A stretch of 64,000 bases of DNA from Ulva prolifera. Its lineage: Eukaryota > Chlorophyta > Ulvophyceae > Ulvales > Ulvaceae. Within the stretch, counting starts at the first letter, position 1, and every line of letters begins with the position of its first letter. Shown here in pieces: positions 1,574 through 58,192 of the stretch. Location: the NCBI GenBank assembly GCA_023078555.1, contig CM041197.1, forward strand, positions 11,257,257-11,321,256, read 5' to 3'. The position numbers and the translations under genes were made by a program. The notes beneath the pieces are model-generated. The model was not told where the DNA came from. It made no database searches and saw nothing but the letters and a program-made list of their open reading frames with translations.

Positions 1574-3425
1574 TCACACAATGTCGAGGTCTAAGGCGAA
1601 GTCGCCGCAGAGCAAGTCGCAAAACGCAAGGCACGCACGGGAGTCACGGCCATCAGGAAACAGGGTCTCAGGCAGGCGCAACTCCTTCAGCGCACGCAGC
1701 TTGGGGATGGTGTTGATGATGTGATTCACGTCGCACACATCGCACAGCAGTTCCAGGTGCGACAGCCGCTCCAGCCCCACGCAAGCGTCCAGCAGAGCCT
1801 CATGGTGGCCAAACACCAGGGTCCCCTCTCCATCATTGACGCACAGGCATTCTAACGCCTTCAGGCCCGCTATTCCCCGGCCGAGCACGCGGGCATCAAG
1901 CCAGGTGCGGTCGTCCCCCGTTACGTCATCGCGCCCGGCTTGCAGCGTCAAATGCGTGAGCTCCGTCAGCTCGAGCAGCGCATTCGTCAGCTCCGCTGAG
2001 TAGACACCACGAGCCTCAAGCGAAGTCCCACACAGGCAGCTCAAGTTCAGGCTGTGCAGCTGCTTGCATATGCCCAGCACACGCATGAACTCGTTCCACG
2101 CACGCCAGACGGACTCGCACGTGCACGCATGACCAACGAACTCACTTACCAAACCCTCGTCATCCGCCAGCGCCACAGTGAGGCTCGTCAACGCGGCGGC
2201 GGACACGTGCGCACAGTCGGCTGCAATTCGCACGGCCGACTGCGGGCACACGCTTCCGACCTCCACCCTTTGCAGCGGCGGGAATGCGCTGCCGGCTGCA
2301 CGTGCTGCGCCCCCCGCGTCACCCGAGCCCGGGCTCTTGTCGGATGGGAGTACGCCATTGAAGGCGAGCCGGCGGAGCGCTGGGAAGCGCGCACGAGTCA
2401 CCTCCGCAAGGAGCGCTCGCACCGAGAACTTTGAGGTCGAAGGGTGAAAGTGGAGTCTGGTCAGGGAGGGCGCGGAGAGGAGCGGGAGGAGCGTGCGAGC
2501 AACACTGGCGCGTGTGCCGTCCCTGAAGAACGCCAGCCAGTCGACAGTGGCGGCGGGACGCTCTTCAATCTGCAGGGTCTGGAGGGCCGGGAGGGAGGCG
2601 GGGGCTGCCGCGAGACGTGCGTAGCTGTGAAGGGACAACTGTGCGGACGCCGCACGGCGGTTGATGACGATGGTAATGGAGAGGGTGGTGAGGGTGGGGA
2701 GGAGGGCGAGGGTGGTGGCGAGCTCCACACAGCCGCAGGGGTGGGCATCAACGGCGATGCGGAGGTCGACGAGGCGCGGCAGGGCCGCCGGCGGGAGGCA
2801 GGCAGCGAAGTTTCGCAGCCACTGCGGCCGGAAGCGCGGGCCGGTGAGCACGAGGGATGTTAGGGAGGGGTGTGCGGAGGCGGCGCGCGCGAGGAGGGCG
2901 CCGGAGGCGGCAGGGTATGGATGCTCATCCACTGCGGGGTCATCGTCCTCGTCAGAATACGGTTCATCATCTACGTCCGCCACCGGACCAAGCTCAAGCG
3001 TGGAGAGGCCGGGGGCGGGCATGCGCACGGTGGGCAATTGCATCAGGACCACCTGGGCTTGTACTGTGTCTATAGCAAGGGTCCCGCCATTGGCGGCCGC
3101 GGCGATGATTGTGGCGTGGAGCGGGGGCGGCAGAGTGTTGATCGCGGAATACATGCAGCGGTCGGCAAGGTAGACCAAGAAGACGCGGTGGAGGAGGTGG
3201 GGGGGGAGGCGGAGGAGGGCGGCCAGCATGGTGTCTGCGCGCGAGCTGTCTCCCCAGACGGTCGTCGCAGCCATGCCTGCGAGGGTCTCCACCCATGCGC
3301 CGTCGTCCTTGTCACCGAGCGCGTCTGCGACCTGCACGTGTGACTGCCGGTGTGGGGGGCATCAGCTTTCCTGACTGAGGCTGTGCCACGGGAGTGTGTC
3401 AAGGCGTACGTCAACCTCCATAGAG

Positions 3426-3460
<35 letters not shown>

Positions 3461-4159
3461 TCAGACGAGATATTAGTCTCTGGTCGCCAGCAGCTGTGAC
3501 CCACTTGCAAGACATTCTGGAGAACGGCGGAATCTAGTGCAGGTCCCCCGCAACTCCTGCTTGACAAAGGGCACTTGCTTCAGGCAGGCGTGCACACGAC
3601 GATTCGATGGACTGACCCGATTCGATCGACACAGCTCCTGTCTGGGCCACTTGATTGGAACTTTACATGTGTTTGCATCGCATCCACGGATGTTTCTGCG
3701 GTGGTCCTGATGCCGCTCAGGTTTAGAAGTTGTGTGATAACATAGCCATTCGGGTCCGGCATTTACCGCCCTAATCCACTTGCAAGATTTTCCCATGAAA
3801 ATTGTGGGCACCAACACGTTCACGTCATATCGTACTGTATGGAACGCGGCTGTGGTGGTGATCACACGAAGATTCGCGGAACGAGGGCTCACCTTCAGCA
3901 CAGCCACGAGCTCATCTGGATGAAATTCAATGTCAACAACGCTTGCTGCTTGCCAGAGACTGATGTCCTGCGGAGAGATGTTGCCTGGAAGGGACGCCAG
4001 CCCTTCCGTGGTCTTGATCCCCGAGAGCAGCCCTGATCGCCTCACAGCCTTTGCCGTCACGCAGTTCCCCACGACGACGGAATTCTCTAACTTATTGGAC
4101 GATAGGTCGTCCTCGATCAGAGCGACGTAGCTTCGTTTCTTGCCCTGTGAGGTCGTCAT
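1574..4159 (-). CDS. LRR-family protein 1 (two exons)
   Basis: Exon 1 is 4159-3893 (89 codons), the intron is 3892-3332 (AAG|GTGAGC to GTGCAG|GTC, phase 0), and exon 2 is 3331-1574. The predicted protein has 674 residues. Residues 8-12 are KRSYV, about 43-60 are SGLLSGIKTTEGLASLP, and the exon ends in DELVAVLK. Exon 2 opens with VADALGDKDD, then a helical stretch LPPHLLHRVF and LPPPLHATIIAAA. About 400 residues of irregular leucine-rich repeats follow, of the type LPRLVDLRI / LPTLTTLSI, resembling RNI-like LRRs. There is no signal peptide or transmembrane segment, so an intracellular protein is likely. The start is the ATG that aligns with paralogues; an upstream GTG was ignored. The partner and function are unknown. 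The closest relative in the window is the gene at 16736-19830. Confidence 0.85.
3428..3458. repeat. Poly-G tract (31 G) in intron of LRR gene 1
   Basis: Thirty-one consecutive G on the plus strand, so poly-C in the transcript, about 100 bp upstream of the exon-2 acceptor. The length may be inexact because of sequencing slippage. Confidence 0.9.
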
Positions 4160-12213: not shown

Positions 12214-15200
12214 CTATAAAAGTTCCAACTCCAGATGTGGAAAGCGCGCGACGAACGCGCGCCACTTGCGAGAGTTCGGGCCGTCAGGGAACACGTTGTC
12301 CGACAAGCACAACTTCTTCAGTGCACGAAGCTTCGGCACGGCAGCGCTGAGGGCACGAACGCCGTTGCGCATCCAGCACAGGAGCGTCAAGTGCGACAGC
12401 CGCTTCAGCCCCGCACTCGCCTCCAGCAGAGCCTCCCCGTGGTCACTGAACACAACCTCGCCCTGCCCGTCACTGATAAACAGCCACTCCAGTGCCACCA
12501 GCCCGGCGACCCCGCGGCCAAGCGCGCGACCATCGAACCACGTGCCTGAGACTCCTGTTGCTGATTCGCTGCCACCTGCCATCGAGAAGTGCGTCAGCTC
12601 CGTCAGCTCTGGCAGCGCATCTGCGAGCGCTCCGGAGAAGACCCCGCAGTTCTCAAATGACACCCCGAACAAACAGCTCAGATCCAGCCGCCGCAGCTGC
12701 CGGCAGCTGGCAAGCGCACGCGTGAAACTGGCCCATGCACGCCACACCGCTTCGCCGGAGCCCGCGTTACCGCCACACTCACTGTTCTCCTCGCACACAT
12801 CTACGGAGAGGTGTGTCAGGGTGCCCGCGGACAGCTGCGCGCCGACGCTCGCGATGCTCAGGGCGGAGTGCACACACGCACACCACACCGACAGCTCCTG
12901 CAGCGGCGGCGGCATGCTGTCCGCTGCGCACGCTGTGCCCTCCACGTCTCCTGCGCCGGAGCGGTTGCTGGGGGGCGGGGGGCCATTGAAGGTGAGACGA
13001 CGGAGCGCGGGGAAGCGCGCGCGTGTCACCCCCGCGAGTTGCCCTCGGACCGAGACCTCCGCAAGGTCTGACGGTTTGAAGTCGAGGCTCGTGAGGGCGG
13101 GTGCGGAGAGGAGGAGGAGAAGAAGATGCGCCACGCTCGCGCGTGCGCCATCCTCGGAGCGCGCGTGCGGCGGATCGCCAGAGCCGGGGGCGCGCTCGGT
13201 CAGGTTCAGGGTCTGGACGGAAGGGAGGATGGCCGGGGTGGCCGCGAGGCATGCCAGGCGGTGAAAGGTGACCTCGTCAGACGGCACCCAGCGGTTGGTT
13301 GTGATCGTAATGGAGAGGGTGGTGAGGGTGGGGAGGAGGGCGAGGGCGGCGGCGAGCTCGACGCAGCCGCCGGGGTGCGCGTCAATGGCGATGCGGAGGT
13401 TGACGAGGCATGGGAGGGCTGGAGGCGCAACGTACGTGCCGAAGTCTCGCAGCCAATGTGGCCGGAGGCGCGGAGCGGTCACCGTGAGGGCGGTGAGGGA
13501 CGGGTGCGCGGAGACGGCGAGGGCCAGGAGTGCGCCAGGGGACGGGTGCGCAAGCGCATGCATGTCCGAGTGTCCGTCACCGTCACCGTCCTCCAGCGCA
13601 AACCCCCAATGGTCCACCTGGCCCAGCTCAAGCACGCGGAGGTCGGGGTCAGGCACGCAGGCGGCGGCTAGATGCATGAGCACCGCGTGGGCATGGCGAT
13701 TGCGAGTTTTGAGGGTGCCGCTGCTGGCGGCTGCGGCGATGACGGCCGCATGGAGCGGCGGCGGCAGCTTGTCGAGCGCGTCCGCCGCCAACCCGTAGGG
13801 GCGGTCATCTGTGAGGACGCGGTGGAGGAGGAGGGGGGGGAGGCGGAGGAGGGCGGCCAGCATGGCGTCTGCGCGGGCAGCGTCGCCCCAGTCGGTGAGT
13901 CGGGTCAGGTCCGCAAGGGTCTTAACCCATGCTGCGTCGCCTTTGTCGCCAGGCACATCTGCAACCTGCACGCATGGCCTGGACTGCAAGAAGGATGCAG
14001 ATATTCAGTGCTGTCAGATTGGCGGAGATGGATGTGGCATGACGATTGTCTCCGCTCACCAATTCGAAGGGGGCAGCGGTGGCATGTCGTGCCGAGAGGT
14101 TGCGACGCAATGCATGCACCCAAAGAGCACGGCGTTCGAGATCACCTCGAGCATACTGGGCCCCTAGACGAGTTGCAAAATAGACTACGGTACATCTGCT
14201 TATGCTTAGCTGAATCCTGAAGAGGACATTGAAACCTCTGGAAGGATGCGACCACATGCCGTTGTATAACTGCTGCGTCGTTGCTGTGAGCATTGCAAGG
14301 ATACATGCGGCGAAGCCGGCTGCACCGCGGAAGAAGCGAGCAGAGCAAGCACACACCCAGACACCCACGCAACACACATAGAACCCACCACATTGCTGTG
14401 GGTGTGATCAGGGCCGGCCTGGTGGGAAGCAGGCACATCCCGCCTGCCATGCTGGTTGAGACAGGCTCCTGCAGCACCTGCTGAGGGCTGGCATGCAGGC
14501 AACGCCACGAGCAGTGAGGAAACAGAACTCACTGTCCCCGCCCGTCTGCGGACATGGCCGCCATGCCATGTGCCTACACGATGTCACGATACATGCAGCT
14601 CAGCACGCCTTGCCAGGCTGGACAAGTTCAAAGTAGAGGCAGGATGTGACAGATGTGTGCAGCGGCGCCACGCCTCAGCTACAGCGCACGGGCTGCGGAA
14701 TCACACTAAGGCTGCATGCAGGTGTGTGCTGAGGAGCCGCGCTTCTGGGGACAGCTCAACATTGACACTGTGACCAAAACCTCGAGGATATGAGGTAGCT
14801 CGTGCGATGTGATGCCGCATGCTGAATTTTGTATGATTTTACGGTTGGCAGTTTGTGCTGTTGGCAGGTGTGCCATGACGGATCGATCATTCAGGCTGCA
14901 CGGGTCAGATCAACTCTGCCGGTTGGCCAGACTAGAAAATACGAATGCAATCAAAATATATCTTCAATGGACTGACCACACACGGTGGCGCTGCGTCAGT
15001 GCGGCTCAGCTTGTGTGCAGTGTTGATGCCGGCCAAATCAACCCACGTCTGAACACAAATCGATCATCCCACTGGCTGCCGATAGCCATGGAGTATCACT
15101 GTGTTTGCATGGTAGAGTGTTTCACACCGCGAGGCATGGCAACGGCGATCCCGGTGATCAAGGCACACGCACACGCAGGGCTAGGCCGCACCTTCGACAC

Positions 15201-15458
15201 GTCCACAACCTTGTCCAAGCGACAATCGACGTCAACAGAGCTTTCTCCTTTCCAGCGACTATCTTCGTGGGCGATGATCATTTCGGCAATGGCCGCAAGC
15301 CCTTCCGTCGTGTTAACGTCCGGAAAAAGCTTTGAACTCCTGACACCCGTTGCCGTCAAACCGTTGGCCTCTGCTAAAGCATTTTCGAGATCTTCAGGGA
15401 AATCATCTTCCTCTCCCATGCTAACGTAGCTTCGTTTCTTGCGCTGTGAGAGTGTCAT
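12214..15458 (-). CDS. LRR-family protein 2 (two exons, divergent first exon)
   Basis: Exon 1 is 15458-15192 (89 codons), the intron is 15191-13966 (GAAG|GTGCGG to GTGCAG|GTT, phase 0), and exon 2 is 13965-12214. The protein has 672 residues. Exon 2 keeps the full plan: VADVPGDKGDAAW, the helical LPPLLLHRVL segment, PPPLHAAVIAAAA, then LRRs with LPCLVNLRIAIDAHPGGCVE and a C-terminal FPDGPNSRKW block. The first exon keeps RKKRSYV and TTEGLA, but the otherwise conserved LLSGI..LASLP core reads KLFPDVN..LAAIAE and DELV is RLDKVV. Its reading frame is still open, so the change suggests relaxed or altered function of the N-terminal module rather than a dead gene. The start aligns with MTTSQ of paralogues; an in-frame GTG 17 codons upstream was not used. 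Confidence 0.8.
14280..14402 (-). mobile_element. 5'-truncated non-LTR 3' end in intron of LRR gene 2
   Basis: About 102 bp (14291-14392) of the GCGGTGCTGCCCGCC...CCTTGCAA tail family, reading on the minus strand. It is flanked by near-identical direct repeats ttgctgtgag (from 14281) and ttgctgtggg (from 14393), a target-site duplication. Compare the copies at 25154 and 27224. Confidence 0.55.
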
Positions 15459-16735: not shown

Positions 16736-19700
16736 TCAGAGGATCTCCAGGTTCAAACTGGCAAAGCGATCCACAAATGCATGACACTCGTCAGAGTCTC
16801 GTCCATCAGGGAACAACGCCTGCGGCAAGCGCAGATCCTTCAGCGCATGCAGCTTGGGGATGGCATCACTGATATGCCTCACCTCACAAACATCGCACAG
16901 CAGTGCCAGGTGCGACAGCCGCTCAAGGCCCACGCATGCATCCAGCACAGCCTCTCCGTGGTGAAAGCACAGATTCCCCTCTCCATGGTCCACACACAGG
17001 CACTCCAGCGCCTTGAGCCCCGCGAACCCCCGGCCGAGTGCCGGCCCATCGATCCACGAGCTGTCGTCACCCAGTACATCATCGAACCCCCCTCGCAGCG
17101 CAAAATGCGTGAGGTCCGGCAGCTCTAGCAGCGCCGCCGCAAGCCGCTCTGAGAGCACCCCCCGTCGCTCGAACGGGACCGCGAACAAGCAGCTGAGGTT
17201 CAGCTTCCGCAGCCGCGTGCAGCTGCCGAGCGCACGCATGAATGTGCTCCATGCACGCCAGACCGCTTCGCGCATGTCCACCTCCTCGGAGAATTCACTC
17301 CCGTCCTCTGACAACACCACTGTGAGGGTCGTCAGTGCGGCCGCGGACATGTGCGCGGCGTCGGCTGCGATGCGGAGCGCCGACTGCGGGCACGCGCTCC
17401 CGACCGCCACCTCTTGCAGCGGCGGCGGCAACGCACTGCGCGCTGCGCGTGCTGTGCCCCCCACGTCTCCCGCACCGGGGTGCTTGTTGGTTCGAAGCGC
17501 ACCGTTGAAAGCGAGCCTCCGGAGCGCCGGGAAGCGCGCCTGCGTCACCTGTGCAAACAGCTCTCGCACAGGGACGGTTGCGATTGACGGAAGAAAGTGG
17601 AGGCTGGTGAGGGAGGGCGCGGAGATGAGCGGGAGGAGCGTGCGCGCCACGCTGGCGTGCAGGCCGTAATCGAAGCATGCCTGCGGGTCGTACGTTTCCG
17701 GGGCCCGCTCTACGATCTTCAGTGTTTGAAGGGCCGGCAGGGAGGCAGGAGCAGCCGCGAGGCGTGCATAGCTATGCAGGGACAGCTCAGCGCGGCGGTT
17801 GATGACGATGGTGATGGAGAGGGTGATGAGGGTGGGGAGGAGGGCGAGAGCAGCGGCGAGCTCCGCGCAGCCGCAGGGGTGGGCATCGATGTTGATGCGG
17901 AGATCGACGAGGCGCGGCAGGGCCGCCGGCGGAAGGCACGCAGCGAAGTTGCGCAGCCACTGCGGCTGGAAGCGTGGGCCGGTCAGCGCGAGGGCGGTGA
18001 GGGAGGGGTGCGCGGAGGCAGCGCGCGCGAGGAGGGCGCCGGTGGAGGAAGGGTAATGATGCGCAGGCATGTCGGTGTCTTCGTCGACATCAGCCTCGCT
18101 CGCCGCGCAATCCGCTTCCCCTCCCGGGCCGAGCTCAAGCGCATGGAGGCCAGGGGCGGGGACGCGGACTGCGGGCAGATGCATGAGCACCGCCTGGGCG
18201 TGGTAGATGCCAATCTCGAGGGTACCATCATGGGCAGCTGCGGCAATCACGGCGGCGTGTAGCGGCGGCGGCAGCGTGCTGAGCGCATTCGTTACGGACT
18301 TGCCGGCAAGGTGGGCTGCAAGCACACGGTGGAGGAGGTGGGGGGGAAGGCGGAGGAGGGCGGCCAGCATGGTGTCTGCTTGGACAGCGTCGTCCCAGTC
18401 GGTCTCCGCAGCCATGCGTGCGAGGGTTTCCACCCATGCGGCGTCATCCTTGTCGCCGAGCGCGTCTGCCACCTGAATGCATGACATGACTTTGAGCAGC
18501 GCCAGAGATTTTGATGGAGGTCGCAGCGGGTGCGGCGCACCCTGCGTTTCAGTCCGTAAAGGGCATGGGGGTAGTAGCGGGCTTGGGGATCGGCAACATA
18601 ATATGTTGTTGCCTGCACTGGTGAGCTGCAGCGTGCGGAGTGGTTTTCAGCTTGCAACACCCGGCATGCAAACGCTGTGCTTGCTGAGCAGTCAGGGATC
18701 GCCTAGAAAAAGAAGAGGCAGAATGTGGACTGGTCAGAGGCAGAATGTGGACTGATAGCCAGCTGGAGGATGGCACGTCAAGGGTGTGCATCATCTACAT
18801 TGGTGACGGGCATGACTGGCGGCAGTGCGTGCCCGCTGCCGCATGCTATGTCTGTGTGGAGCAGAAGTGGCGACTGGTTGCTTTGTTTCTGGGCAGGTGT
18901 GGCACAACCTGGCGCACATGCCATTGACCATCACAAACCAAGGAGGGCGCTGGCCTGAACGCCTGCTCTTCTGCAAATGCGCTCACTGTACTCTCCTCGA
19001 TGCGATGTGCGTGGGGTGTGCTGGTTCATGTCTCCATGTGAGCAACTCTCTGCAGGTGTCAGGCTGTGCAAAATTTTCAGGGCTAACAGATGTATGCAGA
19101 GGAGCCGCAGCTCAGTGACCACACAGCCGAGACAGACAGATGACTATGTCTTTGCTGTGTTCATGGTCAGCATGTGCAGTGCGATGATACCACAATATCT
19201 GTGCCGAAGTGATTGGCGAAGGGTCTGCGCCACAGGTGCATGAGCAGGATTGGATGCTTACCTGTTTCCTTCGTCGCAGCTCTGCGGCATCACCGAACGT
19301 CCATGTGACGACTAACATTAATCGACATGTATCGCAAAGGAACGACTCGAATTGGCGGGTTAGTGTCAGTGCGGATGGGCTTCAGAGCAGTGTTCACGCG
19401 CCATTGCACATTCGGACACAACTATAGAATCACGTCAGTAAACACAAGCGATGAAGAACTCAATCGTTGACAATTTTGTGGTACAGCATTGCTCATGATG
19501 GGCTGTGGGAGACGATGGTCCTGGCGATCAAGGCAAACGAATAAGAACAGGTCGAAGGCGCACCTTCAACACGGCCACGAGCTCATCCGGATGAAAGTCG
19601 ATATCTACCAAGCACGCTGTCTCCCAGAGACTCACGTCCTGCGGGGTGATTTTGCCGGGAAGCGACGCCAGACCTTCAGTGGTTTTGATTCCCGAGAGAA

Positions 19701-19830
19701 GCCCTGACCTTGTCACAGCCTTTGCCGTCACACAGCTTCCCACCACAATCGCGTGTTCATGGATTGCAGTAGAATTGTCGCCTTCTGTCAAGGCAACGTG
19801 GCTTCGTTTTCTGCCCTGCGAGGTCGTCAT
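16736..19830 (-). CDS. LRR-family protein 3 (two exons)
   Basis: Exon 1 is 19830-19564 (89 codons), the intron is 19563-18473 (GAAG|GTGCGC to TTCAG|GTG, phase 0), and exon 2 is 18472-16736. The protein has 667 residues. Exon 1 reads MTTSQGRKRSHV, later TRSGLLSGIKTTEGLASLP, and ends DELVAVLK. Exon 2 starts VADALGDKDDAAWVETLARM and has LPPHLLHRVL, PPPLHAAVIAAAA, then LRRs with LPRLVDLRINIDAHPCGC and a C-terminal LFPDGRDSDE block. It is the closest paralogue of LRR gene 1 in both exons, suggesting duplication of a whole transcription unit. The intron shares segments with the intron of the pseudogene at 23850-26417, as expected for paralogous genes. No membrane segment; biochemical role unknown. 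Confidence 0.85.
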
Positions 19831-25097: not shown

Positions 25098-25300
25098 CAC
25101 AAGGAAAAGCCGGAGTGGCCGGTCGCACCGCCAGGGCAACGGTGGTGTGTGTGTTGCAAGGATGATTGCGGCGAGGCGGGCAGCACCGCGAAAGAGCAAT
25201 CAGATTGGGTACAAACCCAGATACCCACACAACAGAGCAGCAGCGCACAGGGCAACGGTAGCGTGTGTGCAACAGAAGTGGCAGGCGTTGGTCACCTGCG
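25098..25300 (-). mobile_element. Nested non-LTR 3' ends in the pseudogene intron
   Basis: An older tail (complement of acaaggaaaagccggagtgg) is interrupted at 25154-25247 by a second tail of the GCGGTGCTGCCCGCC...CCTTGCAA type. The interruption is flanked by 22-bp direct repeats starting cagggcaacggt (25132-25153 and 25248-25269, two mismatches), the target-site duplication of the younger insertion. Confidence 0.6.
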
Positions 25301-25555
25301 ACTCACATGCCACGCAGCACCGCGCCCAGCGAGGGCACTCGCCTGATCGCCCTCGCTTCTGCGACGATGTCCGGCATGCTATCAGCGTGGGGTGTGCTGA
25401 CGGTGGTCACCATCTGAGTGGCTTTGCAGGCTTGAGGCTGGACACTCCAGACGCAGAGGTGGCTGTGAGGCAGCAGAGGGCCGCAGCTCCGGGACACAAC
25501 AATTGTGACACAGTGGCCACAGCCCCATTGTGGTTTCGATGGCCTGGCCATGCAG

Positions 25556-25656
25556 CAGTGCCGCGTCGCTTTGCAGCATTTCGGGGCTGCCACCCAGAAA
25601 TTAGACCTGAACGTTCGGAATTTTTACATATCATCGGGCCCGACGGCCCAACACTG
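25556..25656. mobile_element. hAT-like MITE, copy 1 (101 bp)
   Basis: Starts CAGTGCCGCGTCGCTTTGC and ends CGGCCCAACACTG, with termini inverted apart from decay. It shares GTCGCTTTGCAGCATTT, TAGACCTGAA, TTCGGAATTTTTACATAT and ATCGGGCCCGA with copies at 32560 and 57060. The flanking octamers are ccatgcag and ctgtgcag (6/8 identical), consistent with an aged 8-bp hAT target duplication. Confidence 0.65.
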
Positions 25657-25696
25657 CTGTGCAGTGTGACGCTGCCAGGTTGCTTAGGCTGATGAG

Positions 25697-25790
25697 TATT
25701 GGGTCGCCTTGCACTGTTTTCAGGGCTGCCATCAGGAAACGAGACACAGATATTCAGAGCTGTGCTGCGTGATCGTGTTCGACGATACAA
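25697..25790. repeat. Possible diverged fourth MITE copy
   Basis: ttgggtcgccttgcactgtt, ttcagggctgcca and gatattcag match the MITE family in order, but the termini are not recognisable. Confidence 0.3.
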
Positions 25791-38846: not shown

Positions 38847-41123
38847 TCACTCCAGGACGACTTCGCCAGGGAAGTGGGCCACCATTGCGTTAAAGCCATC
38901 AGGGTCCTCCTCCGCGACGGAGCCCCGCAGCACGAGCGCCGAGAGTGTGGCCATCTTCGGCAGCAGCTCCCTCACCCACCGGAACATCACGCCATGGAAG
39001 CACAGCTCCAGGTCAGCGAGGTGCCTCAGGCCCGTGCACGCGTCGAGCACCGGCTGTGCGCCGGTGTCCTCGAACCGCAGCACACCGGCGCGGGAGTGAA
39101 TGGACAGCTCGCGCAGGTGCGCGAGCGCCGCCAGCGCGCCGCCGATCGCGCTGCCGCTGAGTACGACCGGCATGTCGTCCGCGGGGGCGGGCCCGAGGCC
39201 GCAGGAGAGCTTCAGGCCGGTGAGGCGCGTCAGGCACTCGAGCGCCTGCGCGAGGCTGCGGCTGAAGGACACGCCGTGGCCGTGGAACGGCGTGTTGAGG
39301 CAGACGAGGTCGAGCGCGCGCAGGTGCGTGCACGCGCCGAGGATGCCCCAGAACGGCGGCCACGAGTCCCGCGCCATGCGGACGGTGCACGTGTCGTCGT
39401 GCGGGCCCGTGACCTCGGGGTTGAGCGTCATGCGCAGCTGAGTCAGCGTCGGCGCGAAGCATTGGCACGCGGCCGCGGCGATCCGCCGCACGGACGCCGG
39501 GCATGCGCTCTCGACCATCACGGCCCGTACCGGCGGGAACGACACCCCATCGATCGAGAGCAGCTTCATGCTGGACAAGACGTCGGCTTTGAGGGCGCCA
39601 GAGAGGGCGAGCGTGTGAAGGGCGGGGAAGCGCTCGCTAGTGACCTCCGGCAGGACGGCGGTGAAGGGGGTGCGGACGGGGCAGACCTTGAGCGCGAGGC
39701 GCGTGAGGGCGGGCGCAGTGATGAGCTGCAGGAAGGCGTGCGCGCAGCCGCCGCACTGCCGGGTGTCGATCGGGCGGTCGGCGGCCTCGAAGAAGTCGAG
39801 GTGGTGGAGGCGGGGGAGGGTCGCGGGGCCGCCGGCGAGGCGGGCGTACGCCGCAAGGGACTCGGCCATCGGGGAGCTGTCGTACGGGTGGTTGAGTGAG
39901 AAGGTGACGGTGAGAGTGGTCAGGGTGGGGAGGAGGGCGAGGCAGGCGGCGGCCTCCACGCATCCGCCGGGGTGGGCGCGGGTGGCAATGCGGAGGGCGA
40001 CGAGGGCGGGCAGGGCGGCGGGGGGGAGGCAGGAGGAGAAGGTGCGGAGCAGCTGTGGCGGCTGGCGGTCGAGGTGGAGGGTGGTGAGGGTGGGGTGGGC
40101 GGACACCGCGCGGGCGAGGAGGACGCCCTTCGAGGCAGACATGCTGTTGCGCTGTTGGGGCTCATGGTGTACGGTGAGGGTGTGGAGGCCGGCGGAGGGA
40201 GTGGTGGCGTAGGGGAGCAGCGAGAGGATGGTCGACGCAGTGGCAGCAGGGACGACCAGCGTCGATGCGGACATCATCGCGGAGACGATGGCGATGTGGA
40301 GGGGGGCGGGAAAGGTCTCGAGGGGCGTGGTGGGGACGGAGAAGCGTGGGGGCGGCCTGCGGAGGCAGGCGGAGAGGACGCGGCGGAGGAGGTGCGCGGG
40401 GAGGCGGAGGAGGGCGGCCAGCATGGTGTCTGCCGGGGTCTCCGATTTCCAGTCCGTTGCAGATGCTTTCTCTGCGAGGTCGTCGACCCACTTCTGGTCG
40501 TTGGGGTCGCCCAGGGCGTCCGCGACCTGCAGCGGTGGGTGCATGTCACGAGTGGCTGCATGTAACGATGTTTCGAGTGGCTGCAAGTGCGCGCGTCAGA
40601 CTGGCGCACGGTCAAGGACGGTGCGGAGCTGCCGAAGCTGAGGTGCCAACTCAACTCGCAGCACAGATGAGGACTGCAGCTGAGCAACATGCTTCATGTG
40701 GTGAAGTATGAAACAGCAGGTGACAGCGGGATGGAGCGCAGCCAGTGCCAGCAGACTAGACGAGGACGCGTCTGAATCGCAGGCAGGAGCACACAGAGGA
40801 GGGCAGCACACCTGCAGGATGGTCACGAGCTCATCCACACGTGTTTCTATGTTGAAGGTGCAGGCTGTTTCCCAGAGCTTCACGTCTTGGGGGCACAGGC
40901 CCGCTGGCAGCGACGCCAAGCCCTCAGTGTCCTTTATCCCGGCCAGAAGGCCAGACCTCCGCACCACTTTGCGAGAGACGCGAACTCCGACCACAACCGC
41001 ATCATCGTCATCATTTGACGTTGACGGCTTGTCGTTGCTCTGCGCCAGCGTCACATAGCCTCGCTTCGAGCCACGGACTGCTTCGACAGACGATTGACAG
41101 CGACTGTTAGCTGCATCTGCCAT
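38847..41123 (-). CDS. LRR-family protein 5 (two exons)
   Basis: Exon 1 is 41123-40812 (104 codons), the intron is 40811-40527 (CTGCAG|GTGTGC to GCTGCAG|GTC, phase 0, shortest of the family), and exon 2 is 40526-38847. The protein has 663 residues. Exon 1 has SKRGYVTLAQ, a poly-Asp stretch, then RRSGLLAGIKDTEGLASLP and DELVTILQ. Exon 2 starts VADALGDPNDQKWVDDLAEK. It has LPAHLLRRVL and the LRR region with LPALVALRIATRAHPGGCVE, then SMKLLSIDGVSFPPV and a C-terminal FHGVMFRWVRELLPKMATLS block. Strand-specific GC is very high in the LRR exon, producing long antisense open frames that are not genes. The upstream motif of the left-end genes is absent. ATG choice: first Met in frame before the conserved block; the frame is open further upstream. 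Confidence 0.85.
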
Positions 41124-43025: not shown

Positions 43026-44711
43026 TCATACATCATCAGAAACAGCATTAAAATAATCAGGATCAGCGGTCCACTGCAGGTTGAGCTGCACATCACTGAA
43101 GCGGACGACGCGCTCCGCAAAGGCCTCGCAGTCCGACCTGCGCTCCACAGCCGTGCCTTCCAGCGCGCACACCTCCAGCGCCTGTAGGCGCGGCAGCACC
43201 GCCTCTACCTCCGCAATCGTCCACCCCTCCGCCCTCAGCTTCAGCTCCGCGAGGTCCGCCAGCCCAGCACACGCGCCCAGCACCGGCTGCACGGTGTCAA
43301 ACACCAGCCCCCCGCCGCAGAGCTGCAGCACCTGAAGCCGGGAGAGAGCGGCGACGGCGCCCCCGATGCTGCCTCCGAAGAGCCGCACTGTCGCGCGAGG
43401 GACTATTTCCTGCCACCCGACCTCAAGCTGCAGGGCTGTGAGGGCAGTGAGGCAAGCCAGCCCGGCCGCGAGGTCGAGGCTGAAGTCGGCGGCCGCCTCC
43501 GGCTCCTCCGGCACGCCGCACAGGTATGACAGATTGAAGTTGTGCAGGTGGGCGAGCCGAGGCATTGCGCGGAAGAAGTCAGTCCACATGCCAGCGAGCA
43601 CCCCCGCTGTAGACTCTTCGTCGTGGCATGGATCGACCATCTCATGCATGGAGCTTATTTCCAGCGAGGTCAAGCTTTGCTGGTCCAGGTGGGCGACCGC
43701 CACGCCCATGGCGAGGGCAGACACCGGGCATGGGCTGTAGGCGGTGTAGGCTGCCAGCGGCGGCAAGGGGCCAGAATGCAATGGCTTAGGGTCCTGCATG
43801 GTTCTCCGTCGGCGGGACGCTGCTACATCCTGAACACGTGCGACAGTGAGGGTCGAAAGCTGCTGTAGCTTCTGGAAGCCCGCGGCCGCCTGCAGGAGGC
43901 GCTCAGGCACAGCAAACCCTGTTTGCTTGGATTTTATCAGCGATGTGAGGTCAGGCGCGGACAGCCACGGGAGGAAGTCGTTGGCGCAGCTGTAGCAATG
44001 GGTATCTTTGTAAGGCTCTCGACCTTCGATGAGAGTCAGCTCCCTGAGGGCAGGGAGCACCACCCGCCCCGCGGCTCCTTGGCGGGAGAGGCTTTGCAAG
44101 GACGCCGCCGGTGGCGCCTGCCCCCCCTGCAGCTTGAAACGGGTCCTCAGACAGACGTGTGAGCGCTGGCAGGAGATGCAGGCAGCTGACAACCTCAGCG
44201 CAGCTGTCGGGGTGGGCATCGACGTAGAGGGAGAGGGAGACGAGGCCGGGTAGGCCGCCGGGAGAGGCAGCGGCGGCAAAGATTGCGCAGCCACCGAGGC
44301 GGCAGTGGGGTATCTGCGATGTCGAGTCGGGTGAGGGACGGGTGAGCGGAGGCTGCTTGCGCGACTCGGAGCAGAGCACCCGTGGCCGGTTGAAGCCCTT
44401 GCGTCGCTTCTCCTCGCTTGAAACACCACTTTTCCCTGACCATACGCACTTATAATATTAAGCTAGGTCTGTGGGTGGAAGGGGCGTGGCAATAAGGCTG
44501 TAATGGAGCGACGCGGCGCTGCGGCAGGGCACCGCCAGCGTCCCTCGACGCAATCGGCATTCGGCGGAGACGGCTGCAGCGTGGAGGGGGGACGGGTGCG
44601 TGGCGAGGACACCGTCAAGCCAGCAGCAGCTGTGCTCCGGGTGGCGCTGGCGGCAGTGGGAGAGGACAGTGGAGAGAGCATTGGGGGAGAGGCAGATGAG
44701 GGCTCCGATCA
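43026..44711 (-). pseudogene. LRR-family pseudogene 6
   Basis: The C-terminal two thirds (about 44170-43026) read well: LPALRELTLIEGREPYKDTH, HNFNLSYLCGVPEEPEAA, AAGLACLTALTALQLEVG, then a RFSDVQLNLQW C-terminus. Upstream the family pattern continues but in other frames. LICLSPNALSTVLSHC and PSPLHAAAVSAE lie at 44711-44460, GALLRVAQAASAHPSLTRLD at 44449-44300, and LPGLVSLSLYVDAHPDSC at about 44280-44220. At least three frame changes are needed and no introns fit them. The VADALGD start and exon 1 are missing. It is probably non-functional, though a shortened product from a downstream start cannot be excluded. Confidence 0.7.
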
Positions 44712-44786
44712 TGGCTCTGCTGCAGTGGCTGCTGCCAATCTGTTGCCGTCGCCTGCTATGCGTGCCTCTTGGCCCATTCGCAGCAT
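44653..44786. repeat. Inverted duplication, left arm
   Basis: 134 bp nearly identical (two or three mismatches) to the reverse complement of 44925-45058; loop 138 bp. The left arm contains the LRR-pseudogene segment LICLSPNALSTVLS. Confidence 0.85.
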
Positions 44787-44924
44787 TCCGAATCGCCGAG
44801 AGCATCCGCGACCCACACAGGGTTGAGCGCAGTCGATTGGCTATACATGGAAACATGGCTTGTGGATGCTGTGAGCATGCCAGTCGGGTGTGTGGGAATT
44901 GCATGGAAGGACAGACTTCAGCTC

Positions 44925-45385: not shown

Positions 45386-48205
45386 TCACCAGAGCTGGGG
45401 CTCCAGACGCTCCGGCCACGTGCGCAACTGCACTCTGCTGAAACGATTCCTGTACTCATGAAGCTCGTCCGGGCTGTAATCTTGCAACACTTCAGCATTC
45501 ACGCGGCAGGACCTCAGGGCAGGCAGCGCCTCGAGCAACGCGGTGAGCTGCACCGGCGTTACAGCATCAAACGTCAGGTCCACAGCGGTCAGCTTTGTCA
45601 AGTGTGCGCACGCATCCATCACTGGCTGCGTATCGTCGCGGGAAAACTTGAAGCGCGCTCTGCTGGTGCCACTCAGGCTCAGGTCCTGCAGCTCTAACAG
45701 CGCTGACAAGGCTTCGCCGAACACCAGCCCGTCCAGAGAGTTGTAGTCTAAACGGAAAGGACTGTCGGGGTCTGCTTCACGCGCCTGCATCGACAGCCGA
45801 GTCAGCTGCGTCAGCGACCTCAGAGCCGAGCCGAAGGAAACAGTCACGTCCGGCTGGGACCACCAGGCTGTGATGCTGTCCAGAGCCAAGACTTGCAGAC
45901 CCTTACAGCAGCGCAGGCTTGCCAGAAACCATCTCCATGCTTTGCACACGGATCTTGACCTATACGTGCACTGTTCGGTGAGCTCGGGTGACAGGGACGC
46001 GACCTCACCGGGAGGCATGCTGAGCTGAAGCGATGTGAGCGTCGCGCCACAGGCTGTCGCGGCCGAGGTGGCGATCGCCAGCGGCGACCACGGGCACGCG
46101 CTCCTCAAGCTGAAACTGGCCAGCGGGGGGAGCTTTGCGGCCGCGGCCACGAAGACGGACTGGTCCTTCGCTGGCGCCAGCTGCTTGACGTCGAACTCAA
46201 CTTCCTGCAGCGCTGTGCATCTCACGGCAGTCTCGATCAGGTCTCGAATCCGGGTGCAGGGCACATCGGATGCAAAGCGCAGCGATGTCAGCGCCGGCAA
46301 GATGAGCAGCTGGAGAAATGAGTTTCCGCAGCTCTGGGTGACCGCCGAGCCCCCAGCCATACAGGCCTCCTGGATCTCCAGGCGCCGGAGGTGGGGGAGG
46401 GCGGCCGGGGCCGCCGCGAGGCGGGAGTAGGCGGAGATGGAGTCGCCGGTGGCCGAGGGGCACAGCCCCAGCTCGATGCGGAGGGAGGTGAGGGCAGGGA
46501 GGCGGGCGAGGGTGGCCGCAACTGCCGCGCAACCGCCAGGGTATGCGATCGCTTCAAGCTCTAGCTCCACAAGCCGGGGCAGCGCTCCAGGGGTGAGGCA
46601 CGAGGTGAAGGCGCGCAGCCACGGCGCGGGGATGTACGCGCCCGAGAGGGTCAGGCGGGTGAGGGAGGGGTGGGCGGCGGCGGCGCGCGCGAGGAGCGCT
46701 GCCGCTCCCAGAGGCAGCTCGCTCACACTCTTAGGGTAGCCATGAGAGACCGCGATCACCTCCTGCAGGCCGGGGGGTGGGAGGGCGGTGTAAGGGAGGG
46801 CGGTGAGGAGGGGCACGGCGGTCACGCCGCAGATGCCCAGCCCGCCGTCGGCGGCGGCAGCGGCGACGATCGCAGGGTGCAGCGCCACCGGGAACGAGTC
46901 GAGGAGCAAGTGTTCAGTTCCGCAAAACTCCAGGCAGTGGGCGATGACGCGGAGGAGGAGGTGGTCTGGGAGACGGCACAGCGCGCACAGCATGGCGCCG
47001 GCCGCGCCACTGTCCTTCCAGTCTGTGGACACCGCCCGCTTTGCCAGTTCGTCAACCCACTCAAGATCACGAGCGTCGCCTAGAACATCACACACCTGCA
47101 TAGCTGAAGCATGTTGAGTGCGGCGGGGGTGGCCAGGCAGAGGCGCGGCCGCCTAGCGTGGTCAGTTCATTCATGCACATGCATTGATGCAGTGGTGTCC
47201 ACTGGTGTGTCCACATGGGTGCTACTGGCGCGTGTGGCAGAAGGCCGGGCAGGGCAGCTGTGTCCGCAGAGCATGTCAGGTCACAATCCGAATATGGTCT
47301 GACATGCTCTTGATAGCCTGTTTTATTGTGAAGTACTCATCGATTTTGATATGTCTTTGCCATAACTATCTGGGATTTCAGAACTCCGAACACACTTGAC
47401 CTGGAGTCCAGAAAACCGTATGCTACTCACAGGGGCTGCTCCCGTAGTGAGCGAGGGGTTGACACGTGGCCGTATGCGTGCTGGGTCTTGCGTGCATGTG
47501 TGACGCCCTCCATGCAGAATTTGAGATGCTGTCTGCGTCTCTGGCGTTCTCCTTGTATAACACGGCCGCATCGCTTCCGCAAAGCACACGCGCGGTTCTG
47601 CCGACGTCGTTCATTCGAGAGTGCCGACACTCCCAAATGCGCCGGCGCAAAAGACAGCTTGCAGGTACCTATGACGCCAAGACAGCGTACCATACTGAAT
47701 GTTGCACTCAACACGACTCACGCAGGTTCTGTTGTACGCAGAGGTTCCTATCGACGCAGACTGCACCTGCAGGTCTGCGGGTAGCGAGCACGCGTCCCGC
47801 AGCCCGGCATCATTCAGTCATCACATAGACAGTAGCATACTGCTGCAGTGATGGTTTCGACACTGCTCCTTCACGAGTGGGTTTCTGACGCAGGAGCCGA
47901 ACATGCTAGACTGATCACACCTTCAGGACGGTCACTAGTTCGTCCAGCGGCAGACGAAAGTCAACAGCGCATGCAGTCTGCCATAGCTGTATGTCTTCGG
48001 GAGTGACCTGAGCAGGAAGCGAGGCAAGGCCTTCCGCGTGTTCAATCCCAGACAGCAGATCCGACCGCTTGACAGCTGCGGCTTTGACGCGATAGCCGAT
48101 AACAAGATCATTCTCGGGTTGCATCTGAGATTCTTGGTGATCGATCAGCGTCACATAGGTTCGTTTCCGTGATGCCAGGGACACGCCGTCTTGCACGTCG
48201 ACCAT
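45386..48205 (-). CDS. LRR-family protein 7 (two exons)
   Basis: Exon 1 is 48205-47921 (95 codons), the intron is 47920-47096 (CTGAAG|GTGTGA to ATGCAG|GTG, phase 0), and exon 2 is 47095-45386. The protein has 664 residues. Exon 1: MVDVQDGVSLASRKRTYVTL, then KRSDLLSGIEHAEGLASLP, EDIQLWQTACAVD and DELVTVLK. Exon 2: VCDVLGDARDLEWVDELAKR, LPDHLLLRVI, LPLGAAALLARAAAAHPSL, LRRs with LPRLVELELEAIAYPGGCAA, and SYRSRSVCKAWRWFLASLRC. With the gene at 49974-52729 it forms a distinct subfamily (SDLLSGIEH.EGLASLP; ARAA.AHP.LTRLTLS). The intron holds a relic of the SINE family. Confidence 0.85.
47320..47480 (-). repeat. Old SINE relic in intron of LRR gene 7
   Basis: aaccgtatgctactcacagg...gtgagcgaggggttgacacgtggccgt follows the order of the SINE body at 41870-41930 with many substitutions. 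The B-box part is lost. Confidence 0.4.
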
Positions 48206-49973: not shown

Positions 49974-52729
49974 CTACAGCTTACGCGCAGACGTAATTAT
50001 TTCAACTTTACTGAAGCGAACCCTGTATTCAGCAAGCTCTGCCGGGTCGTAAACCTGCAGGACTTCTTCAAACACATGGCACAGCTCTAGGGCAGGCGAC
50101 ACTTCAAGCAGCGCCGTGAGCTGCACCGACGTCACCGCATCGATGGTCAACTCCACAGCTTTCAGCTTCTGCAGGCGAGCACACGCTTCCAGCACCGGCT
50201 GCGAACGGTCGAACGTGAACCGTGCGCCGCCACTCACACACAGGGCCAACTCCTGCAGCTCAGACAACCCGGATATGGCTTCGCCAAGCACCGCCCCATC
50301 CAGAGAGACGCGAGCTTGCAGGCCACATCCAGCTTCTGGTGCACGTGCCTGGATGGACAGACGAGTCAGCTGCGTCAGAGCGCTCAGCGCCGACCCGAGG
50401 GCAACGGAGACGCTTTCCTGGCCGTACCACCCAACTAGACAGCCTAGATTCAAGACCTGCAGACCCGTGCAGGTTTCAAGGCATGGGAGAAAACGTGACC
50501 ACGCTTCGGCAATCACCTCGGGCGAAAGAATGACACGTCTTTTCATCTCGAGTGACATGGACGCCTCCATGTCTGCATGCACGCAGAGCTGAAGCGACGT
50601 GAGCGACGCCCTGGAGGCCGCCAGAGCCGAAGTGGCGACGGCCAGCGGCGACAGTGGGCATGCGTTCGTCAAGCTGAGGCTTGCCAGCGGCGGAAACGCC
50701 GCGGCCGCGCCAGTAAACATGTTCTCGCCCTTCTCCGGTGCGAGCACCTCGACGTTGTACGTAACCTCCTTCAGCGCCGGGCACCGCGCGACGACATCGC
50801 CCACGTCCCGGATGCGCATGCTCTGCGCGTCGCTGCTGGCGAAGCTGAGGCAAGTCAGGGCCAACAAGCTGAGCAGCTGGATGAATGAGCTCCCGCAGCT
50901 GGGGGCCACCCTCGCACTGCCAGCCACACGCGCCTCATGGTACTCCAGGCGCTGGAGGTGCGGGAGGGAGGCGGGGGCGGCTGCGAGGCGGGAGCAGGCG
51001 CTTATAGATTTGGCGGTGGCCGGGGGAAACAATCCCAATTCCAAACGAAGGGAGGTGAGGGCGGGGAGGTGGGAGAGGGTCGCCGCGACCGCCGCGCAGC
51101 CGCCGGGGTGTGCCTCGGCGCTGAGAGTCAGCTCCACAAGCCGGGGCAGCGCTCCGGGGGCGAGGCATGCGGAGAAGGCGCGCAGCCACGGCGCGCGGAT
51201 GAACGCGTGAGATAGGGTGAGGCGGGTGAGGCAGGGGTGGGCAGTGGCGGCGCGCGCGAGCAGCTCCGCCGCCGCCAGCGGCATCTCACTCAGATGCTTG
51301 GGGGCCATATGCTTGCGATAGCTCTCTGAGACCACGGCCAGCGCCTGTAGGCCTGGGGGTGGCAATGTGGTGCTAGGGAGGGCAGCGAGGAGGGGCATGG
51401 CAGTGTCTTCGCAAAGGGCCAGTTCTCCGCTGAAGGTGGCAGCGGCAGCGATCGCAGCATGCAGCGGCGCCGGAAACGTGGTGAGGAGTGCTTCGAGGTC
51501 CATCAGCGACCGGCAGCGCACCATGACGCGGCGGAGGAGGTGGTCGGGGAGGCGGAAGAGCGCGCACAGCATCACTCCGCCGTCGTCACCTTCCTCCCAC
51601 GCTGTATTCGAAGCCCGCTTTGCCAATTCAAGGACCCACTTTCCATCATCGGTGTCACCCAGAGCATCAGACACCTGCACAGCCGATGTGGTGTCATGAG
51701 CTGGGCAGCGGCGGGGCAGAGGTGCGGCCGCCTGGCATGGTGAGTGCGCATGTGTCTGCAGCAGTGTGTCTGCAGGGACCCTGTTGGCCAGTGGTGCTTG
51801 GCTGTGATGTTGCAATGCAGGTGTGAGATAAATGTTCGAGGTAGGTCAGATCAACACAGTTCTGTTCTTTCAGTGGAGGGCAACAAGTATGGGACGTGGT
51901 TAGGCCTTTGTCGACTCATCTGCAAGGCCTTCAGTACGTCAGAGGGGTCAGCATGCACCACCCGGAATGTGCACCATTCTGGGGGAGAAAAGGGAGAAGG
52001 GAGAGGGAGAGGGAGAGGGAGAGTGAGGACAGATGACAGGGCGAGACCACTTGGACGCCCGCCGCGACAGCTGCATCTGACGACGTTGGCGCAACATTGG
52101 TGGCCTGTTATGTGTTGCCAGCTATGTGAATTGTTCATTCAATTCCCGAAATGCTCGTCACAGATGACCTTGCTGACACCGTTGAAGCTTTTAGGGACCG
52201 TACGTAAAATATTGTTGGCCATGATTACCGCAAGTTCTGTTTCAAGCATAGAGGCCCATAGAGCACCCACACTGCGACGGCAGGCTTGCTTGTACTGAGC
52301 GCGCGCTCTGATGCGGCCAAACCTTGCTCAGAGCATACGTGAACAGTTTCATGCTGCAGGAGTGGTGGTATCAGCATTGTCACGAATGGGTTTTTCTTCT
52401 GCCACAGCAGTCGAGCATGGCAACGGTAACCATACCTTCAAGACAGTGACGAGTTCGTCAAGCGGCATCTCAGAGTCAACAGCACAAGCAGCCTGCCACA
52501 GCTGTATGTCTTCGGGCTTGAGCTCGGCAGGAAGCGAGGCAAGCCCTTCCGTGTGCTCGATGCCTGAAAGGAGGTCCGAGCGCTCCACAGCTGTGGCCCC
52601 GATGTGATGGCCGATGACCACATTCTCCTGTTGTAAGAGGAGGTCATCATCCTCGATGAGCGTGACATAGGCTCGTTTTCTGGATGCCCGAGACTTCAGG
52701 TCTTGACCAACGACCACATCTCCAGACAT
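49974..52729 (-). CDS. LRR-family protein 8 (two exons)
   Basis: Exon 1 is 52729-52436 (98 codons), the intron is 52435-51675 (TTGAAG|GTATGG to GTGCAG|GTG, phase 0), and exon 2 is 51674-49974. The protein has 664 residues. Exon 1: MSGDVVVGQDLKSRASRKRA, then ERSDLLSGIEHTEGLASLP, EDIQLWQAACAVD and DELVTVLK. Exon 2: VSDALGDTDDGKWVLELAKR, LPDHLLRRVM, MPLAAAELLARAATAHPCL, LRRs with LPRLVELTLSAEAHPGGCAA and LPALTSLRLELGLFPPAT. Closest to LRR gene 7 across both exons. In-frame codons continue upstream of 52729; the chosen ATG aligns best with paralogues. Probably intracellular; ligand unknown. Confidence 0.85.
51991..52023. repeat. (GGGAGA)n tract in intron of LRR gene 8
   Basis: About five imperfect repeats of gggaga on the plus strand. 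Confidence 0.8.
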
Positions 52730-54937: not shown

Positions 54938-55356
54938 CTGCACTCGCGGCCGTGTAAAGACGTTCGCTGACGTGTTGCGGTGCGCGCGGCTTGCACGCGA
55001 CGTGCGGCACAGCCTCTCTCGCTCCCATGCGCCGTGGCCACGCGCACACCCACACCGTCACTGTACAAGCCGGCAAGGGCTGCTGAAGGCGGGCAACGCC
55101 CAATCCGGGGTGCACATTGGTTGCAGGGTATGGCATATATATAATAATATATATAAAAATTTGGCTTTTGTGCATGCACCATACGGTCACCTTGACGAAC
55201 CAGACGCGCGGCGTCAGCCGCTCCCTGATTACGCGGTCTGCGCAACAGGCACAGAATTCCCACGGAGACTGGCGACCATGAGGCGTGTACGCCAGTAGAT
55301 GGTACTCAAAGAGGTGTGTATCGTGAGCACACCTGGCGACACTTCCGGCCACACGG

Positions 55357-58192
55357 TCAGGCATCTGAAGCCGAGTCCTCGGACGAACAGCAGCACACAG
55401 AGACAGCAAGCTCCGGGAAGCGGGCCTGCAGGCCATCTACGCCGGGCTCAACACACATGCTGCCGCCTATGTCCAGCCGCCGCAGCGCTCTCAGCTTCGG
55501 GATCAGCTCCGGCAGATGCACGCCATGCTCCGTGTGCATGCACAGGCCCAGCCGCGACAGCCTCGAGAGGCCGGTGCAGGCCTCCAGCACATGCTGCGGC
55601 TCCAGGAGCTCCATCTCGCCCGTCCTATCGCACACAGAGAACACCTCGAGGGCTGTTAGTGCCGCCAACGCAGTGCCCAGGGGCTGGCCATGCATGCGGC
55701 AGTGGGAGCCGTCCACCACCAGCTCCTCGACGGCGCTCAGCTGGAGGCACGTGAGGCCGGTCAGTGCCGTGAGCGTCGCCGCAAGGTCGGCGCTGTGGCT
55801 CAGGACATGCTCGCCGGTGTGCACGCCAGAGAGCGTGCCCAGCTCGAGATGCAGCAGGCGAGAGCACCGCGCCAACGCTGGCAGCAGGCACTCCCAGGCC
55901 TGCACCACACTGTCCCGCGAGCACCGGGCCGCATAGTCAGCATCCACGCCTTCGCTCGCCACCGTTAGACGCGTGATCATGGGCGCGGCCTGGGCGGCAA
56001 ACGCGGCGGCGGTCAGGGGCGCTTCGGGGCTCATGCTCGTGATGGCAACGCCGGTGAGCGAGGGCAGCACAAAGTCGGCAGTGCGGCGCGTATCAGAGCC
56101 CGCCGCGTCAGCGTGGGCCTCGGAGTCGATTCGCAGCTCCTGCAGGGCTGTCAGGTGCGAGATGGACTCCCCCAGATGCTCGTACACCACGAGGTGTGCC
56201 TGCGTTGTCAGCTTGAGGCTGCGGAGTCCGGGGGCATCGATGAGAGGCAGGAGCGTGGGCAGGCAGGTGCGTGGTCGCAGCATGTTACTTATGTGTTGGT
56301 TCTCGTCGACTTCTAATTGCCGGAGGCTCGGGAGGCGGGCGGGCGAGACATCGGAGCGGATCAAGGCGCCGAGGGTCGAGTCGCCTGACTTCTGCCGTGG
56401 CTGAATGTTGAGCTCCAGGCGTGTGAGAGCAGGGAGGTGCTTCAAACAGGTGATCAGCGGCGTGGTCCCGTTGGGGTGCTCGGTGCTGATCGACAGGTCG
56501 ACTAGCCGCCATGGGCCATTGCGGCAGAGGCACGCTGCGAACCGGGCCGCAGCCCTCATCGGCAGATAAATATCGCCCAGGTCGAGCTTCTGCAGGGATG
56601 GGTGTGCGGAGAGCGATCGCGCGAGAGCCGCGGCCATCACCGAGGACATGCAATAGGTCTGCCCGGATGTTGGCTGGAGCGCCTGCAGGCGCTGCAAGCC
56701 TGGTGACGGCACCGTGGCGGTGGATAGAAGCGCAAGGATGGACAAGTCGAGTGGCGCCGACAGGTGTAGGGATCCATCGGCGACGGAGGCGTCGACGGTC
56801 GGCTGGTGGAGGGCCTGGGGGAGGAGTAGCAGGAGTTTAGGTAGGCTGCTCCAGAGCGGCACGCAGGCGACGAGGCAGCGGTGGAGGAGGTGGGGCGGGA
56901 GCGTGAGGAGGCTGGCCAGCATCGCGTCGGAGGTGGCGCTGTCTTGCCACTCCGTATGAATGATGCGCTGCACAAGCGCGTCTGTCCAGGCAGTCTGGCC
57001 AGTGTCGCCCAGTGCATCTGCCACCTACACACCGCGCCAGTGAGGCTCGTTGTAGTTGACAGTGGTGGGTCGCTTTGCAGCATTTCCAGGTCTGCTTCCC
57101 AGGAATTAGACCTGAATATTCGGAATTTTTACATATGATCGGGCCCGATGACCAAACACTGGTAGCTGAGGAGGTGCAGTGGGCACACAGGTGAACAAGC
57201 TCCAGATGCAAACGCCGCTCTGAGCCGTGTTGGGCAACTTTGAAGAGACCCGCTGGCATGTTTGCCAGAGCCACGAGCAGTGCAACTAGATCATTACGCG
57301 AAAGGGATAGAGGTGCGTTTCATGCCGCCGGGCTCGTCGTGGCCAAGAGCACTCATGATGCGTAGACCGCAGAAGTTTCAGTGGACATACAGTCAAATGA
57401 TACAGTGCAATGGGTTTTTTCAAAGCGATCCCAGGTGGCCTCAAGTTTATGGGACGTTGACAGTTCATGGATTTGGACATGTACCGTATTCGTGGCATTC
57501 CAGTGACATGAGTCGTATCATGTGACCGCTGCACTACTGGATCATTAACGCTGGATCCACTGACCCCACGGCCGCGGAAGCATTGCATTTATGAATATTT
57601 AGGACTACATGCCTTTCACTTGACCTAAAGCATTGGCGTGCCAGATCGAATCGGCCTGCTTCGACTGAAGCCTTGAACGGTCTCAACTGATGCCTGAAAC
57701 AGTCTCTCCGTGCAGCAAAAGAAGGCGACATTGCTGTGAATTTAGCAGCACTGTCAAAGCTGTTTCATGCGTCAACTTCCGACACGGCATTTTGTCTGTC
57801 TTGCATTTGTTACAAGAATCACCAGAAACGTCACACACAGATGTACAGCGTTCTTGCAGTCTCAGACAAGTGAGATCCGGAACACGTACCGTCAGGATCG
57901 TCACTAGTTCATCTGTAGAAGGACTGGTCGGCACTAACTTCGCTAACTGCCACAGCCGCACGTCCTCTGGCGTCAAGTTGTCCGGGAGTGACGCCAGGCC
58001 ATCAGCGTCCGACAAGCCCGACAGCAGCACAGACTGTGCAGCGATGCCCCTACGCAAGCGATGCCCTACGAAAACACCCCTTTCTGTATCTTCCTGGGCG
58101 GAATTCTGGATTAGCGTGACGTGTCCGATGCGTGGCGCTTTGCGACAAGGCATCGCACTGTCCAGGATCGTGTCGACATCGTCGTCTGTCAT
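55357..58192 (-). CDS. LRR-family protein 9 (two exons)
   Basis: Exon 1 is 58192-57890 (101 codons), the intron is 57889-57025 (CTGACG|GTACGTG to GTGTAG|GTG, phase 0), and exon 2 is 57024-55357. The protein has 656 residues and is the most divergent intact member. Exon 1: MTDDDVDTILDSAMPCRKAP, RIGHVTLIQ, QSVLLSGLSDADGLASLP, EDVRLWQLAK and DELVTILT. Exon 2: VADALGDTGQTAWTDALVQR, LPPHLLHRCLVACV, LPQALHQPTVDAS, LRRs with LPALTRLELNIQPRQKSG and LPSLRQLEVDENQHISNMLR. It ends in a Ser/Glu-rich CCCSSEDSASDA tail. A MITE sits 36 bp from the acceptor inside the intron. The gene is bracketed by the two copies of the segmental duplication. Confidence 0.85.
57060..57161. mobile_element. hAT-like MITE, copy 3 (102 bp), in intron of LRR gene 9
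   Basis: Starts CAGTGGTGGGTCGC and ends GATGACCAAACACTG. The flanking octamers gtagttga (57052-57059) and gtagctga (57162-57169) agree at 7 of 8 bases. It is the best-preserved target duplication of this family. Confidence 0.75.

Follow-up and report, generated by a model that had tools for sequence, protein, structure and literature searches.

What might a tandem row of near-uniform genes for leucine-rich repeat (LRR) proteins, whose N-terminal module escapes sequence profiles, be doing in a green alga? We addressed this question in Ulva prolifera for a stretch of 64,000 nucleotides (hereafter the window; contig CM041197.1, C2:11257257-11321256, of an 88.9 Mb genome in 44 contigs; features in it are given in window coordinates), in which a first-pass annotation had described a family of two-exon LRR genes. 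We favor, with moderate confidence, the reading that this family comprises proteins with a BTB/POZ-fold-like domain followed by LRRs, which would serve as interchangeable substrate receptors or sensors and have expanded by tandem birth and death.

Results

Gene plan and predicted folds

All seven intact genes of the first-pass annotation were recovered, uniform two-exon plan, positions and sizes included. They are lettered A, B, C, F, H, I and J and lie on the minus strand: In each, a first exon of 89-104 codons is separated from a second exon of 555-585 codons by a single phase-0 GT..AG intron of 285-1226 nt, and the predicted proteins measure 656-674 residues. In gene A, exon 1 (3893-4159, 89 codons) encodes most of the BTB-like domain, and exon 2 (1574-3331, 585 codons) encodes its end, a helical linker and the LRR; the intron between them (3332-3892) reads GTGAG..CAG. 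Gene B has exon 2 at 12214-13965 (583 codons), its intron at 13966-15191 and a diverged exon 1 at 15192-15458 (89 codons; E 0.002 in the genome search), and its length depends on the start: The ATG at 15458 gives 672 residues, whereas a second in-frame ATG (15503) gives 687 and extends exon 1 to 104 codons. The corresponding exon 2, intron and exon 1 occupy 16736-18472 (578 codons), 18473-19563 and 19564-19830 (89 codons) in gene C, and 38847-40526 (559 codons), 40527-40811 (285 nt, a single in-frame TGA) and 40812-41123 (104 codons) in gene F. For gene H they are found at 45386-47095 (569 codons), 47096-47920 and 47921-48205 (95 codons), for gene I at 49974-51674 (566 codons), 51675-52435 and 52436-52729 (98 codons), and for gene J at 55357-57024 (555 codons), 57025-57889 and 57890-58192 (101 codons). 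Exon 2 of the six other intact genes shares 33-67% identity with that of gene C over 527-578 gene C residues.

The N-terminal module (N-module) had been taken to coincide with the first exon and to match no known domain. The first of these claims did not hold: The module extends beyond exon 1 into exon 2, of which roughly the first 25 codons are needed to complete it, and the intron cuts helix A4. In AlphaFold models from two branches of the family, the predicted order of elements is B1-B2-A1-A2-B3-A3-A4-A5, the core topology of BTB/POZ/SKP1; these models are of unspliced translations with the intron retained, and in the second of them B2 has just two residues. The BTB-like domain of the gene F model comprises residues of about 22-104 and 200-222, corresponding to 40458-41060 on the minus strand (AlphaFold, Foldseek, VIA-align). 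BTB-fold proteins form the best rows in two structure libraries, with no significant Foldseek match; in the PDB search the top row is SKP1, whose VIA-align alignment spans model residues 22-235, and the rows for BTB proteins and Elongin C score about equally. On the side of sequence, Pfam and NCBIfam scans and profile searches against PDB sequences gave no supporting match for the N-module, no scanned family member matched PF00651 (BTB) or PF01466 (Skp1) over the cut-off, and hhalign against small SKP1 and BTB alignments added no support. Genome-wide, at least four PF00651 matches (six-frame) and two PF01466 matches were obtained, all outside the family loci. The claim of a module without a known domain therefore stands for sequence profiles and is weakened by the predicted structures at the level of the fold. 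This double outcome could also be read as a new small α/β fold that merely resembles BTB, which would account for the missing significance in sequence and Foldseek searches alike; we consider this improbable, as the order of elements is the same in the models of two branches and BTB-fold proteins head both libraries.

The RNI-like LRR assigned to the C-terminal part is borne out by two observations. The arm forms a β-strand/helix horseshoe of the RNI type in the structure predicted for a distant member that the family profile recognizes by its exon 2, and the window members themselves yield sub-threshold LRR matches in Pfam. The structural matches of this arm lie near FBXL17, and SKP2 complexes and the LRRs of NLRP and NLRC4 are also among the rows.

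Splice signals and selection

Of 47 exon-2 matches, 30 were fetched and 26 loci examined. A script paired exon 1 with exon 2 at 24 of them, with an AG acceptor in every case and a clean donor (K/Q/T|GT) in 23; the exception is L029, where the script misplaced the donor, and gene B, one of the two unpaired loci, was paired by eye. No donor was found by the script for L031 and L035. The exon-2 set does not include the partial loci L051, L062, L065 and L066, the alignments and the selection analysis were made without L055, which has stops, and L067, whose start is poor, and alignment set A2 leaves out L013 (exon-1 stop), L029, and L037 and L063 (upstream stop). Seven distant regions were taken, with the frameshifted L080 unused, and inspection by eye established that the intron position is kept in six distant members (donors five GT and one GC, acceptors six AG). 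L081 on contig C9 also carries its intron at the conserved position of the family, and the junction of L082 is uncounted owing to a wrong script donor. The intron of L078 at this position is likely GC-AG, with the donor after VLK. Short in-frame introns free of stops occur at about the same place in L076, L081 and L082 (the latter by eye), so that the spliced and the unspliced product would both be open.

For the 25 exon-2 pairs that are closest among 276, the ratio of nonsynonymous to synonymous substitution rates (dN/dS) ranges from 0.33 to 0.58. Pooled over close independent paralogue pairs, it amounts to 0.44 for exon 2 (n=8) and 0.28 for exon 1, the latter from seven of the eight pairs, since one partner has an exon-1 stop, and with two of the seven near saturation (proportion of synonymous differences, pS, 0.59 and 0.72). 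In 45 overlapping windows of 25 codons, the ratio of the corresponding proportions (pN/pS) never rises above 1, and its maximum, 0.85, falls in the linker. These pooled values and the lack of any window above 1 indicate purifying selection that is stronger on exon 1 than on exon 2. The first-pass annotation had proposed a check for positive selection on the LRR: Our crude pairwise test gave no sign of pervasive diversifying selection in the 45 windows, and positive selection was dismissed as a driver of the family. Exon-2 identity, dN/dS and conserved splice signals mark the gene series in the window as more than chance.

Extent of the family in the genome

Genome searches returned 60 exon-1 matches at E≤1, of which 38 at E≤0.01, and, with gene F as the query, the 47 exon-2 matches at E≤0.001. 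The main cluster covers about 300 kb of contig C2 (11.23-11.53 Mb) on both strands, with outliers on C1, C2 and C4. The same-strand arrangement noted earlier thus describes the window correctly and fails for the family: Many plus-strand members follow further along the cluster, and we rejected a single-strand tandem as a family property. In a tree of 24 exon-2 proteins, physical neighbors mostly group together, as expected from tandem duplication; as exceptions, gene J, on the minus strand at 11.31 Mb, joins a plus-strand member at 11.47 Mb, and one C1 copy joins one C2 copy. With a distant exon 1 from C9 as the query, 108 matches were obtained at E≤0.01; by hand count, 89 of these fall within 1.47-4.03 Mb of C9, an expansion larger than that of the window. 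This distant branch adds about 100 N-modules to the family, most of them on C9. By hand count of both exon-1 listings at E≤0.01, the N-module occurs at about 143 separate places genome-wide, a number of places including decayed copies, not of intact genes.

The kinship of the C2 and C9 branches is weak in pairwise comparison. Against their unity it counts that C9 is absent from the exon-2 matches of gene F at E≤0.001, that the best cross-branch exon-1 values are only 0.003 (C2 match, C9 query) and 0.017 (C9 match, C2-cluster query), and that a profile of 24 C2/C1 second exons misses L074, L075 and L082. The same profile recovers the other four of seven distant members, L077 (4.5e-41), L078 (2e-25), L079 (5.8e-20) and L081 (9.4e-13), with zero matches in 140 shuffles; judged by this bridge and by the common intron position, the two branches appear to be related.

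Two side observations concern the exon-1 matches. On C9, several matches at 2.44-2.49 Mb have a partner at 2.54-2.56 Mb with the same or almost the same score. The partners are separated by about 75 kb or 98 kb (2482661/2557634, 2473753/2548753 and 2438497/2536161 are examples), and the pattern looks like recent large-block duplication. Four weak matches of similar score and extent (C1:7953722, C1:4079795, C8:2470209 and C8:1717486), each containing a single TAG and a single TAA, are possibly a dispersed repeat carrying a broken piece of exon 1. Pattern-based scans of viral contigs with the LRR family, the genome's own SKP1 and BTB as queries confirmed no relative, and the light-harvesting family gives 38 genome matches, as in a photosynthetic eukaryote.

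Other features of the window

Both decayed members described earlier were found on the minus strand: One spans 23956-26421, with exon-2 pieces in several frames at 23956-24571 and an exon-1 remnant at 26230-26421, and the other (43077-44812) retains only a frameshifted exon 2. A tenth member had been placed at the assembly gap (N run 295-394); tblastn with the collected exon-1 and exon-2 sequences found no match in 1-1573 at E≤0.01, and this copy was dropped. Between 5370 and 11396, a 300-nt stretch is present in four copies of 100% identity placed exactly 1909 nt apart, and three open frames in the array (5644, 7553 and 9462) are identical; either the assembly is at fault here or the tandem duplication is very recent. 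A proline-rich reading frame with a cysteine-rich end (28304-29218, minus strand) has a sub-threshold match to CBM_1, a cellulose-binding family (E 0.0054). The window contains no Rfam match at the gathering threshold and no detected tRNA gene.

Discussion

Gene anatomy, splice-signal conservation, purifying selection, a large family and predicted folds are demonstrated here, and a function in recognition or as an adaptor can fairly be inferred, because a BTB-type head combined with a variable repeat arm is a usual plan of substrate receptors of cullin ligases. This plan of BTB domain and variable repeats is also touched upon in passages of PMC4209131. Exon 1 and roughly 25 codons of exon 2 would fold into a very diverged BTB/SKP1-type head, which may dock on a cullin or self-associate; a small helical linker with an F-box-like motif (LP..LL.RVL) follows, the LRR arm would bind a varying target, receptors or adaptors of this kind would bring varied targets to the cullin, and the set would grow through tandem birth and death. 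By analogy, the family probably supplies cullin-ligase receptors; three cullin loci (17 matches) and one SKP1 locus are present in the genome. Two points weigh against this reading: The structural-match rows have high root-mean-square deviations, and the LRR horseshoe was modeled on a distant member, not on a window gene.

The main rival retains the BTB-like head and the LRRs and dispenses with cullins: The proteins would be sensors that work by self-association, as immune-like or signaling scaffolds. BTB domains are able to homodimerize or form tetramers, according to the portion of Stogios 2005 (PMC1257465) considered here, LRRs of NLRP and NLRC4 are among the matches of the repeat arm, and tandem clusters with decayed copies resemble recognition repertoires. 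Yet no NACHT/NB-ARC, nucleotide-binding or signaling domain was found over the Pfam cut-off in eight scanned sequences (seven exon-2 frames and one exon 1), and diversifying selection was not seen, so that we regard self-association as possible, if unlikely. Lastly, a one-chain SKP1, F-box and LRR protein, whose head packs on F-box-like helices and which needs no separate SKP1 to meet a CUL1-type cullin, would fit the top SKP1 row with its long alignment, the proximity of the LRR to FBXL17 and SKP2 complexes, the small helical linker between BTB-like domain and LRR with its F-box-like motif LP..LL.RVL, and PF13013 (F-box-like_2) matches (best E 0.0041), but is improbable, since these matches are limited to two of 22 members, one at E 0.18 and 12.3 bits against a Pfam cut-off of 21.6 bits, and BTB and Elongin C score about as well as SKP1.

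For the proposed BTB/POZ-fold-like LRR receptors, the closest likeness is to F-box-LRR proteins, SKP1-type folds, NLRs and a chlamydial family. FBXL17, SKP2 and TIR1/D3 share the RNI-type LRR arm and a possible F-box-like motif upstream; they are not known to carry a BTB/SKP1-like domain at the N-terminus, unlike the algal family, in which in turn the F-box is only putative. SKP1, Elongin C and BTB proteins resemble the N-module in predicted element order and as its best structural matches, and differ in that the algal module lacks a sequence-profile match; SKP1 and Elongin C are little more than the core fold, as stated in the section of Stogios 2005 (PMC1257465) drawn on here. NLRs and RNase-inhibitor LRR proteins have the LRR fold in common, whereas their N-terminal domain is another one. 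The BTB-LRR architecture as such is already known from PEX1 of Protochlamydia, the nearest counterpart in domain plan: The relevant passages give 73 members, all with LRRs and all but three with a BTB domain (Domman 2014, PMC4209131), and 43 BTB-LRR proteins in strain UWE25 (Stogios 2005, PMC1257465). As far as these passages go, PEX1 is alike, by architecture alone, in its N-terminal BTB-type domain, C-terminal LRRs and lineage-specific birth-and-death expansion; it is, however, bacterial with a BTB domain recognized by profiles, whereas the algal family belongs to a photosynthetic eukaryote, has an intron within the domain and a head that profiles miss. A literature search whose coverage lacks most subscription journals found no description of the algal family, and PMC6019070, in the part considered, is unrelated to it.

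Conclusion

If the proposed reading is right, most BTB-fold proteins of this genome escape annotation by profiles, with at least four Pfam BTB matches set against about 143 places of the diverged module, and repertoires of BTB-LRR proteins arose not only in chlamydiae but also in a photosynthetic eukaryote. Elsewhere, the BTB-LRR plan selects proteins for degradation or recognizes foreign molecules. As a speculative and rather unlikely extension, the more than 100 gene copies, decayed ones included, might form an innate intracellular repertoire that, with a BTB-like head invisible to profiles, marks proteins that are foreign or in surplus for degradation through cullins. The family would, if BTB-LRR proteins are what it encodes, provide concrete candidates for intracellular recognition in algae or for the choice of substrates in protein degradation.
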